Shown piece by piece: positions 3,131-20,001 of a stretch of DNA of 20,307 nucleotides. Source of the DNA: a virus; the IMG/VR virus record IMGVR_UViG_3300017706_001303, positions 1-20,307 of that record; one strand, written 5' to 3'. Numbering within the stretch: the stretch's first letter is position 1; each line of letters opens with the position of its first letter. The position numbers were made by a program, and so were the translations under genes. Below the pieces are notes generated by a model that saw only the letters and a list, made by a program, of their open reading frames with translations, was not told the DNA's origin and did no database searches.

Positions 3131-3144
3131 GTTACTTCGGTAAC
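3131..3144 (+). other. UUCG-capped hairpin after gene 23
   Basis: GTTAC (3131-3135), loop TTCG (3136-3139) and GTAAC (3140-3144) form a perfect five-pair stem closed by the extra-stable UUCG tetraloop. It stands just upstream of the main terminator hairpin and has no U tract of its own, so mRNA 3'-end stabilisation is a likelier role than termination. Confidence 0.6.
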
Positions 3145-3147
3145 AAT

Positions 3148-3174
3148 AAAAGGAGAACTTCGGTTCTCCTTTTT
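3148..3174 (+). terminator. Rho-independent terminator of the capsid operon
   Basis: AAAAGGAGAAC (3148-3158) pairs perfectly with GTTCTCCTTTT (3163-3173) around a TTCG tetraloop, and the T-rich run continues to 3174. It lies about 40 bases after the gene 23 stop. UUCG-capped terminators are standard at the ends of T4 operons. Confidence 0.9.
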
Positions 3175-3178
3175 CTTT

Positions 3179-3186
3179 TATAAATA
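3179..3186 (+). promoter_or_regulatory. T4-type late promoter (TATAAATA) after gene 23
   Basis: A second exact TATAAATA lies immediately downstream of the gene 23 terminator and would drive the tail tube-like gene at 3365 with a leader of roughly 170 bases. The pairing of a terminator with a late promoter restarts transcription and sets the tail gene apart from the abundant capsid message. Confidence 0.7.
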
Positions 3187-17022: not shown

Positions 17023-17430
17023 ATGAATCAAGATGAATTGCATTGGACTCCAGCAAATATGTTGGAAATTAGTTTGAACGAACCAGACGACTTTTTAAAG
17101 GTCAAAGAGACTCTTACTCGGATTGGAGTGGCTTCACGCAAGGACGATACTCTATTTCAGTCTTGCCATATTCTACATAAACAAGGTCACTATTTTATAG
17201 TACACTTTAAAGAGCTATTTTTGTTAGATGGGAAAGCTTCTAACCTCTTAGTTAATGATCTACAGCGCAGAAATACAATTGCTCAACTTCTTGCTGATTG
17301 GGGACTGATTACAATCGAAAACTTAGAACAAGTTTCAGACGTAGCGCCGCTAAGGCAAATAAAGATTATCCCGTACAAGGATAAATCAAATTGGAATTTA
17401 GTACCTAAATATAAAATTGGGGTACGATGA
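17023..17430 (+). CDS. regA: Translational repressor RegA
   Basis: At 135 residues this is T4 RegA (122 aa) with about 13 extra N-terminal residues. Very close matches include DFLKVKETLTRIGVASRKD, LFQSCHILHKQGHYFIVHFKE and WNLVPKYKIG at the C-terminus. RegA binds mRNAs around the initiation codon of early genes, including 44 and 45, and competes with ribosomes. The gene starts two bases after the gene 62 stop. If the first ATG is not used, an ATG at residue 13 (MLEISLNEPDDF) would give a product with the T4 N-terminus (MIEITLKKPEDF). Confidence 0.95.
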   Translation: MNQDELHWTPANMLEISLNEPDDFLKVKETLTRIGVASRKDDTLFQSCHILHKQGHYFIVHFKELFLLDGKASNLLVNDLQRRNTIAQLLADWGLITIENLEQVSDVAPLRQIKIIPYKDKSNWNLVPKYKIGVR

Positions 17431-17435
17431 ATGAT

Positions 17436-17524
17436 TAGAGGTTGATGCGAAAGGTCAGCCTCTATCATATCGGTGTAGGATGGTCCTAGCCGATTAACTT
17501 GCAGATAATAATCTGGAGAAAAAA
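17436..17524 (+). promoter_or_regulatory. Three-hairpin 5' leader of hsp20, ROSE-like RNA thermometer candidate
   Basis: Hairpin 1: 17436-17445 pairs with 17455-17464 (TAGAGGTTGA with TCAGCCTCTA). Hairpin 2: ATCGGT-G-TAGGA (17469-17480) pairs with TCCTAGCCGAT (17484-17494) with one bulged G. Hairpin 3: CAGAT (17502-17506) pairs with ATCTG (17511-17515). It then continues through a G17501-G17516 mismatch to U17500-A17517 and U17499-G17518, so the GGAG Shine-Dalgarno (17515-17518) is in the stem. Known ROSE thermometers precede small heat-shock genes, have 2-4 hairpins in 60-100 bases, and pair U-[UC]-G-C with the Shine-Dalgarno through a G-G pair. The match is by eye; thermal behaviour is inference. 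Confidence 0.6.
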
Positions 17525-17947
17525 ATGACACTAAATAATAGAACTTATGGTTTTAACTCTTTGAATCTTGACAGCTTAGTTGAGTCGGCTTTTGCTACTT
17601 TATGTGAAAAAAGTCCTATAAGCGCCCATCCATATTACAACGTCGTAAAAACTGGAGAGTACACTTTCAGTTTAGAGTTTGCTGTGGCTGGATTTGATAG
17701 AAAAGATCTTTCTGTTAGAACTGAAGATGGACGCCTTATCGTGAAAGGGGAAATTGAGCCTGCATCTAATGTGCCTGTAATGAACTACATTCACAAGGGG
17801 ATTTCTACTAAAAGTTTTAATCGAGTTTTCAAGCTTGCCGAAAACGTCGAAATTAAAGAAGTGGTCTATTTGAACGGCATTCTTACGGTAAATTTGATAG
17901 TAAATATACCAGAAACTAAGAAGCCGAAACATTTTGAAATTGTCTAA
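17525..17947 (+). CDS. hsp20: Small heat-shock protein Hsp20/IbpA-like
   Basis: The 140-residue protein is a bacterial class A (IbpA-type) alpha-crystallin chaperone, which holds unfolding proteins in soluble oligomers. The crystallin domain spans about 37-130: HPYYNVVKTGEYTFSLEFAVAGFDRKDLSVRTEDGRLIVKG is diagnostic, followed by KSFNRVFKLAENVEIKE and a G-I-L-T-V motif near 118. The N-terminal SLDSLVESAFATL resembles the IbpA start. Hsp20 genes are common in marine T4-like phages. The leader can hide the Shine-Dalgarno in a hairpin, so temperature or structure may limit translation. A UUCG hairpin follows the stop. Confidence 0.93.
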   Translation: MTLNNRTYGFNSLNLDSLVESAFATLCEKSPISAHPYYNVVKTGEYTFSLEFAVAGFDRKDLSVRTEDGRLIVKGEIEPASNVPVMNYIHKGISTKSFNRVFKLAENVEIKEVVYLNGILTVNLIVNIPETKKPKHFEIV

Positions 17948-18330: not shown

Positions 18331-18349
18331 CTTTATAATGGAGAATAAT

Positions 18350-19822
18350 GTGCCAGAAATTTACACATCAATTTATCGATATGCTAATAACCTCTTATAT
18401 CGTGGGTATGACTCTCATGGTAATCCGGTAAAAAAGAAAATAAAATTTAAGCCGACCATGTTCGTTCCTTCTGAAAAGGGCACGATGCATGCGTTAGACG
18501 GTAAGCGCGTTGCCCCAGTTAATTTTGACAGTATGCGAGAATGTAAAGAGTTTATGGAACAATATAAAGACGTTCCAAACTTCAAGATTTACGGCAACAA
18601 AAACTATGTACACCAATACGTGTACGAGAAGTTTCCAAACACGATTGATTTCGATTTCAACACAGTCAAAAAAGGCAATTGGGACATCGAAGTATTTTGT
18701 CCGGAATTTCCACACCCATCTGAAGTAAAATATCCTGTCACCTCTATCACATTTTGGAATTCTTCTGACAACACATACAGGACTTGGGCCTATAAAGAGG
18801 ACTACGTACCTAAGCGCCAAGATTCAATCTACTATTATTGTAGAGACGAAAAAGACATGTTGATGAAATTTATAAACCACTTTAGTCATGAGGGAGTTAC
18901 TCCTGATATAATGACTGGATGGAATTGTAAGTTTTTCGATACTCCTTATGTAATTAATCGAGTAGTCAAAGTCTTGGGAGAAGAGTTTGCTAAAAAACTT
19001 TCTCCATGGGGAATCGTCAATCAAAGGTTTTTGACTCTCAACGGCCGAGAGCAAGAATACTATGAAATTCTCGGAGTTGTAGAACTCGACTACATCGAAA
19101 TATTTAAGAAGTTTACTATAAACACTCTCGGAGCTCAAGAATCCTACAAACTTGATCATATAGCTCACGTGGTTTTAGGTGAGCGTAAATTATCTTATGA
19201 AGAGTATTCTGGATTAAATGACCTTTATGAAAAGAACTTTGAGCTTTATATCGACTACAATATAAAAGACGTTGAACTTGTAAAACGTATAGATGATAAA
19301 CTCGGGCTTTTATCTCTTGTAGCTACAATGGCTTACCGTGCTGGAGTAAATTACGGAGATACACTCGGAACGACTGGAATATGGGATTCAATAATTTATA
19401 GAGTTCTTTCTAAAAATAATATAGCAGTTCCTCCAGCTGAAGATAACTTTAAGTCTGATTTTCCGGGAGGATACGTTAAGGTTCCTCAAACTGGTATGCA
19501 TAAATGGATTATGTCATTCGATTTAGCTTCACTATATCCGCATATTATTATGCAAGCTAATATGAGTCCTGAAACTCTCTTAGATGAGTCTGTAGAAGAC
19601 TTTATTGACGTCAACACATGTTTAAATAAACATCAACTCGATGCTCCAGAAAACTGTTCAGTTGCCCCGAATGGAGCACTCTTTAGTAATAAGGATAAAG
19701 GTGTTCTGCCTAAAATAATCGAAAGCTATTACGCCGAAAGAAAGAGCATAAAAAAGAAAATGCTTGAAAAAGAGCAAATGCTTGAAAATGTTAAAACTGA
19801 ACTTGCTAAGAGATTAGCTTAA
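18350..19822 (+). CDS. 43A: DNA polymerase, N-terminal part: exonuclease domain and palm motif A (split gp43)
   Basis: This 490-residue family B polymerase fragment covers the N-terminal and 3'-5' exonuclease domains and the first part of the palm. Exo I D112-I-E114 (the same numbers as T4), Exo II WNCKFFD197TPY, Exo III YNIKD307 and motif A D391LASLYPH are intact. It then stops in the fingers helices (KKKMLEKEQMLENVKTELAKRLA). I choose GTG at 18350 because GGAG at 18340-18343 is six bases upstream and the product starts MPEIYTSIYRYANN, like T4 MKEFYISIETVGNN. An in-frame ATG at 18338 has no Shine-Dalgarno. The stop overlaps the next ATG (TAATG). Confidence 0.92.
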   Translation: MPEIYTSIYRYANNLLYRGYDSHGNPVKKKIKFKPTMFVPSEKGTMHALDGKRVAPVNFDSMRECKEFMEQYKDVPNFKIYGNKNYVHQYVYEKFPNTIDFDFNTVKKGNWDIEVFCPEFPHPSEVKYPVTSITFWNSSDNTYRTWAYKEDYVPKRQDSIYYYCRDEKDMLMKFINHFSHEGVTPDIMTGWNCKFFDTPYVINRVVKVLGEEFAKKLSPWGIVNQRFLTLNGREQEYYEILGVVELDYIEIFKKFTINTLGAQESYKLDHIAHVVLGERKLSYEEYSGLNDLYEKNFELYIDYNIKDVELVKRIDDKLGLLSLVATMAYRAGVNYGDTLGTTGIWDSIIYRVLSKNNIAVPPAEDNFKSDFPGGYVKVPQTGMHKWIMSFDLASLYPHIIMQANMSPETLLDESVEDFIDVNTCLNKHQLDAPENCSVAPNGALFSNKDKGVLPKIIESYYAERKSIKKKMLEKEQMLENVKTELAKRLA

Positions 19823-20001
19823 TGATAAAACGAGATTTCTGGTCTTTATCAGATTTAGAAAAAGGCCCTTTCTTTACAAAAGCAAAGTATTTACAAGGGC
19901 TTGGACATATGTTAGAATATAACATGATGGAGCTAGCAGAAATCTTATATGATAGAGATAACAAGACTCAAGAAACCGAAGAAAAACCTAGGTGGTGGTA
20001 A
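19822..20001 (+). CDS. 59-residue ORF inserted between the two polymerase halves
   Basis: The ATG overlaps the 43A stop (TAATG) and the frame closes with TAA at 19999-20001, two bases before the 43B ATG at 20004. The product starts MIKRDFWSLSDLEKGPFFTK, continues with a helical stretch around YLQGLGHMLEYNMMELAEIL, and ends acidic then PRWW. I do not recognise it. It shows no endonuclease motif (GIY-YIG, HNH, LAGLIDADG), no intein splice residues and no resemblance to polymerase. It uses a different frame from both halves. It may be a small accessory subunit, a residue of a mobile insertion, or simply a coupling ORF. Confidence 0.6.
   Translation: MIKRDFWSLSDLEKGPFFTKAKYLQGLGHMLEYNMMELAEILYDRDNKTQETEEKPRWW

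Follow-up and report, generated by a model that had tools for sequence, protein, structure and literature searches.

Bacterial ROSE elements are RNA thermometers of two to four hairpins placed before a (small) heat-shock gene, the last hairpin containing the Shine-Dalgarno sequence and the anti-Shine-Dalgarno core carrying a G that is either bulged or G-G paired. Both geometries are known from solved ROSE hairpins (PMC11342760): in the crystal of the oppF thermometer the G is bulged, and in the B. japonicum structure it is G-G paired. Deletion of this G in proven ROSE elements abolishes or strongly reduces heat induction (PMC3669281, PMC11342760). The ibpA thermometer of Pseudomonas aeruginosa has been proven by experiment (PMC3669281). 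Phage RNA thermometers described in the literature covered here are those of lambda cIII, of SPbeta blyA (a fourU element) and of a Caudoviricetes sigma-70 leader (also fourU) (PMC10586365, PMC11182007). Cyanobacterial T4-like phages have the small heat-shock gene hsp20 among their core genes (PMC3037559), and the role of hsp20 is unsettled between capsid scaffolding and heat protection (PMC3037559, PMC7674155). The open-access papers searched, among which most subscription journals are missing, contain no account of ROSE elements in phages, and an earlier report elsewhere is possible. A full-text literature search for RNA thermometers associated with cyanophage or phage hsp20 yielded nothing relevant, and two papers on cyanophage small heat-shock proteins make no mention of an RNA thermometer.

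Here, we analyzed the whole 20,307-nucleotide stretch of IMG/VR record IMGVR_UViG_3300017706_001303 (hereafter the window, whose numbering is used throughout). It covers part of a T4-like phage genome and codes for a major capsid protein, a clamp and clamp loader, RegA, Hsp20 and a DNA polymerase; its nearest isolate by capsid protein is phage C48C1 of the family Kyanoviridae (61% identity). We conclude that the 94-nt hsp20 leader (17431-17524), which separates the regA stop (17430) from the hsp20 ATG (17525), is very probably a ROSE-like RNA thermometer gating translation of phage Hsp20, with a temperature response that we infer. This reading builds on structure, conservation, covariation, gene association and kinship with a proven bacterial thermometer, all of which we observed. 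A search of the leader gave neither a sigma-70 promoter nor a terminator. Elsewhere in the window, a strong AAAAGGAGAACUUCGGUUCUCCUUUU hairpin with a UUCG loop and a T-run, located 3' of the major capsid gene (3142-3182), is likely a terminator, and the DNA polymerase (gp43) frame at 18338-20001 ends after 494 amino acids in an ATGA overlap with a 59-aa frame; a split of the polymerase gene at this place is possible. The features of the locus are as follows.

17023..17430, plus strand: regA, T4-type translational repressor, directly 5' of the hsp20 leader (Pfam Translat_reg, E 1.6e-44)
17431..17468, plus strand: hairpin A, 5' structural hairpin with a YGC/GG module, GGUUGA-UGC-GAAA-GG-UCAGCC (fold, -21.8 kcal/mol at 25 °C)
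17469..17494, plus strand: hairpin B, middle hairpin, AUCGG...UAGGAUGGUCCUA...CCGAU (fold)
17498..17518, plus strand: hairpin C, candidate thermosensor, CUUGCAGAU/AUCUGGAG; G17501 either bulged or G-G paired (fold)
17499..17503, plus strand: anti-Shine-Dalgarno core UUGCA (ROSE motif U(U/C)GCU, last base compensated; sequence)
17515..17518, plus strand: hsp20 Shine-Dalgarno GGAG, masked within hairpin C (sequence and fold)
17525..17947, plus strand: hsp20, small heat-shock protein of 140 aa (Pfam HSP20, E 3e-15)

The three consecutive hairpins that the original prediction had read from the leader were recovered at 17431-17468, 17469-17494 and about 17498-17518, in a fold far more stable than that of shuffled sequences: the minimum energy of 17431-17530 is -35.2 kcal/mol, compared with -19.6 +/- 3.6 kcal/mol for dinucleotide shuffles (z -4.3), and none of 200 shuffles was as stable. 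In hairpin C, CUUGCAGAU (17498-17506) pairs with AUCUGGAG (17511-17518) through the outer pairs C17498-G17518, U17499-A17517 and U17500-G17516, followed by the G17501 bulge and C17502-G17515, and then through A17503-U17514, G17504-C17513, A17505-U17512 and U17506-A17511, closed by an AAUA loop; G17501 is unpaired or faces G17516. Masking of GGAG in the last hairpin is borne out, and the geometry proposed with it (U-A, G-G, C-G opposite the Shine-Dalgarno) is one of two registers, the one with U17499 unpaired; the other, with the U17500-G17516 wobble and G17501 bulged, pairs one further base. The bulged or G-G paired G of the ROSE class is present in the window as G17501, and the class layout is seen with three hairpins in the window and two in its relatives. 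The window core reads UUGCA/UGGAG instead of UUGCU/AGGAG, which departs from the strict motif and keeps the pair by a double change, a variant shared with two other leaders (L034 and L039).

Hairpin A is the counterpart of hairpin I in short ROSE elements, and its YGC/GG module also occurs in 53 leaders, with covarying stems. Hairpin B is missing in most relatives; both the Rfam model ROSE_3 and our own phage-trained model R2 align their first hairpin to it, probably because it is the nearer of the two. Since hairpin A has the conserved UGC-GAAA-GG module, hairpin B looks like an insertion or a collapsed duplicate of the upstream hairpin.

A search with 4,227 Rfam models gave ROSE_3 as the sole convincing match at the leader (17474-17530, over the start codon at its end), the remaining matches in the window being weak and unrelated. 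Its E value was 0.48 in the whole window, 0.0038 in a 161-nt stretch and 1.1e-4 in a single-family search, with a score of 23.5 bits that does not reach the gathering threshold of 43 bits; we therefore term the element ROSE-like. ROSE_3 also matched 23 of 50 sampled phage relatives at E<=1, the best at 39.9 bits (E 5.3e-9), and no phage copy tested (the window and the 50 relatives) attained the gathering score. The Rfam check suggested with the original prediction thus came out positive, though below that score, and together with conservation and covariation in relatives it supports the ROSE-like reading of the leader well.

For the comparison of relatives, hsp20 leaders were gathered from IMG/VR via hsp20 and, separately, via the neighbouring regA, and supplemented with annotated isolates. 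Nearly all leaders share a common design: a TATAAATA-like box, a stem-YGC-loop-GG-stem hairpin, a short spacer, CUUGCU or CUCGCU, 5-12 nt, AGGAG and the ATG. U(U/C)GC and GGAG face each other in 54 of the 58 non-redundant leaders of phage hsp20 and at 7 of 423 other ATG starts of the same contigs; the strict U(U/C)GCU/AGGAG combination is found in 49 of 58 versus 0 of 423, respectively. The motif G was present in all 54 parsed hairpins. Rather than being peculiar to the window phage, the element precedes hsp20 almost throughout the T4-like marine phages. The hsp20 leaders of S-TIM5 (L125), S-B68 (L128) and DSL-LC02 (L113) have a divergent or no clear ROSE-like element, a possible loss or replacement of the switch. 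In P-HM2 (L120) and P-HM1 (L285), the element lies inside the annotated gene, 3' of the annotated hsp20 start; these annotated starts are probably wrong, the true start probably being the ATG right after the element, which thereby also serves to fix hsp20 gene starts. The exact variant of the window, ACTTGCAGAT....ATCTGGAG, is present in three IMG/VR contigs, there within unrelated sequence lacking hsp20, and no near twin of the window was thus found. A search of genome contigs returned solely distant Spirochaete Hsp20 genes, and the phage model was unmatched in the five of those genomes searched.

The original prediction had called for compensating base changes across homologous phage leaders and had named hairpins without covariation or conservation in relatives as one outcome that would speak against it; we found that both hairpins covary strongly. 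In the upstream hairpin, all stem positions near the module vary yet stay paired while YGC/GG remains constant, as exemplified by pair p2 (GC 33, UA 9, CG 6, AU 4), and the result for pairs p1-p5 was unmatched by any of 5,000 shuffles. Because the finder used for this hairpin favours pairing, it was controlled on shuffled leaders: a YGC/GR module flanked by 7 or more pairs occurred in 35 of 58 real leaders and in 0.5% of shuffled ones. In the Shine-Dalgarno hairpin, the core is invariable because it is bound to the Shine-Dalgarno sequence, and covariation is seen at the flanking pairs p3 (UA 17, CG 16, AU 5), q1 (UA to AU) and q2 (UA 22, AU 16, GC 1). MAFFT alignments of mixed leaders (A2 and A3) were dropped because they put the 3' arm of hairpin 1 in the wrong place, and the uniform subset A4 was used to seed a model. 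In the resulting model-based alignment, which comprises 55 matches, 91% of cells form pairs and double changes occur in 12 of 17 pairs; a further covariation analysis gave a similar result. The covariation score of this alignment was 0.498, compared with 0.149 for shuffled and at most 0.090 for slid controls, the latter being the safer comparison as the alignment is fitted to the structure and somewhat favours the score. Chance folding of an AT-rich leader, for which one could invoke the Rfam score that by itself falls under the cut-off, is refuted by this conservation and covariation, and its probability becomes negligible given the held-out detection and genome-wide specificity of the phage-trained model.

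This covariance model, R2, was trained on 44 phage leader matches from which the window was excluded. In the window, 17476-17527 ranked first (25.1 bits, E 2.8e-5), the next site scoring 9.8 bits. On held-out GenBank isolates, R2 found the hsp20 start in 10 of 10 cases, and at 25 isolate hsp20 loci it reached E<1e-3 in 22; there was no match at hsp20 of S-TIM5 and S-B68, and that of DSL-LC02 was weak (E 0.056). When whole phage genomes of 140-490 kb were searched, R2 usually gave one match, at hsp20. The model also recognized a Pseudomonas ibpA leader (L114) with 34.4 bits and an E value of 3.5e-7. This leader comes from an unverified record, OQ572409.1 ('Pseudomonas phage Y7', 5128-5189), that contains a Pseudomonas-type ibpA with a ROSE thermometer and whose ibpA is possibly host DNA. 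Its C36, U38, G39, C40, G51, G52, G54 and CCGC 23-26 are the published positions of the P. aeruginosa ibpA thermometer (PMC3669281). Hairpin C of the window and ibpA hairpin II share the core C-G, U-A, U-G, bulged G, C-G, differ in one swapped and one added pair, and have similar predicted energies of -7.1 and -6.5 kcal/mol at 25 °C and of -4.35 and -4.0 kcal/mol at 42 °C, respectively.

Recognition of a bacterial gene leader by a phage-only model also argues against the idea that the leader is bound by RegA, the phage translational repressor, which works at translation starts and whose gene adjoins the hsp20 leader in the window. We consider such binding very improbable, as the element stays with hsp20 where over 2 kb separate it from regA (L028 and L030) and where regA is not adjacent (P-RSM4, syn9, Phosso and Atu_ph07).

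The association with hsp20 was also assessed with an IMG/VR DNA-pattern scan (GGATGCC-loop-GGGTCC-spacer-CTYGCT), which uses no protein query and is blind to the downstream gene, and which gave at least 120 matches. Among the 120 matches listed, hsp20 follows 107 and a 74-aa protein (L257) follows 1, while 10 run into a contig end and the remaining 2 (L182 and L267) are chance occurrences in coding DNA; hsp20 is hence downstream in 107 of the 110 readable matches listed. One contig (L004) has two ROSE-like copies, one before hsp20 and a second (908-962) before a phage-encoded dnaK (Pfam HSP70, E 3e-258); the genes there run clpX-like, dnaK, hsp20, clpS-like. In two others (L022 and L023), a second copy precedes a 70-aa protein with no significant Pfam match. 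Complete ROSE-like elements before 70-74 aa proteins were observed in L149/L150 (G010:11210-11271 and G052:34973-35034) and in L257:10492-10527; these proteins are phasin-like by eye and have no Pfam family. The finding that the pattern matches listed in IMG/VR lie almost solely before hsp20 argues against a DNA-level regulatory site, a reading prompted by the listing of ATTCAAACTCGCTTAAATA, at -31 of S-PM2 hsp20, as a putative Pho box (PMC10976474). We give it hardly any credence, since these bases form the anti-Shine-Dalgarno arm of the ROSE-like hairpin in S-PM2 (L122), covary with the opposite arm and lie 3' of the putative late promoter where such a box is seen.

Late promoters have been described as NATAAATA in S-PM2 and TATAAATA in T4 (PMC2984593). 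In most leaders, TATAAATA or a one-mismatch form of it occurs 15-20 nt 5' of the YGC in the upstream hairpin; with 0-1 mismatch and any distance searched, the box is present in 37 of 54 leaders, about 10% being expected from shuffles. As this late-promoter box sits just 5' of the hairpin, the RNA 5' end in most relatives would fall just before the upstream hairpin, and the switch would thus act on late transcripts. No clear late-promoter box was found in the window, where the best candidate, TATAAAAT near 17410, has two mismatches and is not significant; hsp20 may there be transcribed from upstream.

As a thermometer, the leader would work as follows. In the cool, hairpin C would pair the Shine-Dalgarno GGAG with CUUGC over the weak bulged-G core and block ribosomes; upon warming, hairpin C would melt, the stable upstream hairpin(s) would remain intact and hold the register, and Hsp20 would be made. 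This suggests that these phages make the Hsp20 chaperone mainly in the warm infected cell. Energy models, which cover neither the G-G pair nor ribosomes, point the same way: for GGAG in the window they predict a mean unpaired probability of 0.07 (10 °C), 0.17 (25 °C) and 0.30 (42 °C), and for a Pseudomonas-type control an increase from 0.02 to 0.17. Nearest-neighbour folding gives gradual opening only, with no trend in some relatives (e.g. L054, L118 and L121). Such graded opening would also be compatible with a conserved, structured leader whose role is to reduce translation of Hsp20, to set its timing or to shield the mRNA 5' end, without sensing temperature in the host range; a stable 5' hairpin could afford mRNA protection, and cool seawater is the habitat of most of these phages. 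We nevertheless regard a leader of this kind as unlikely, because the element is almost exclusively on the heat-shock gene hsp20, once on dnaK, and because selection has not perfected the anti-Shine-Dalgarno but preserves its bulged G, a hallmark of ROSE thermosensing. The strongest functional hint for a thermometer is indeed evolutionary: the bulged G is kept though a perfect anti-Shine-Dalgarno would mask better.

A conserved thermometer on the hsp20 mRNA points to heat-dependent use of the protein and makes the question of its role directly testable. We lean towards a broader proposal, that T4-like phages possess their own heat-gated chaperone programme in which a bacterial-type ROSE element, usually lying just 3' of a late-promoter box, would govern hsp20 in the majority of marine T4-like phages, cyanophages among them, and in some also dnaK or a 70-74 aa protein. 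If so, phage Hsp20 would presumably benefit the phage through proteostasis in warm late infection, beyond capsid scaffolding alone, and rising sea temperature would directly affect phage protein synthesis. The thermometer would link phage gene expression to water temperature and extend ROSE elements from bacteria to abundant marine viruses, for which few, unrelated phage thermometers were known before.

Among known systems, the cyanobacterial hsp17 thermometer (PMC4477652) likewise controls a small heat-shock gene, but it is a single hairpin with a 1x3 bulge and not a ROSE element; the cyanophage copies are thus unlike a host-type hsp17 thermometer. The thermometers of lambda cIII, SPbeta blyA and Caudoviricetes sigma-70 also control translation by temperature in phages, but belong to structural classes other than ROSE, are found in single phages and do not act on heat-shock genes. 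Bradyrhizobium hspA ROSE1, compared here by description rather than sequence, has the same U(U/C)GCU against the Shine-Dalgarno and the G-G pair (PMC11342760), but is larger, with three to four hairpins (PMC3669281). Rfam ROSE_3 (RF02523) has the same two-hairpin layout, GGAUG...GUCC followed by ACU(U)GC...GGAG and ending over the start codon, and differs in that its gathering score exceeds those of the window and of its best relative. The short ROSE-like thermometer of Pseudomonas ibpA (PMC3669281) resembles the phage element in its stable YGC/GG upstream hairpin, in CUUGC.../...GGAG with a bulged G, in the AUG and in the small heat-shock gene that follows. It is preceded by a sigma-32 promoter (PMC3669281), whereas the phage relatives have a T4-type late-promoter box instead; the gene is moreover a phage gene, and the window adds a middle hairpin and the swapped A-U pair (UUGCA/UGGAG). 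We class the elements as a phage branch of the ROSE-like kind, with the window copy as a compensated variant formally outside the strict five-letter motif and the Rfam cut-off.
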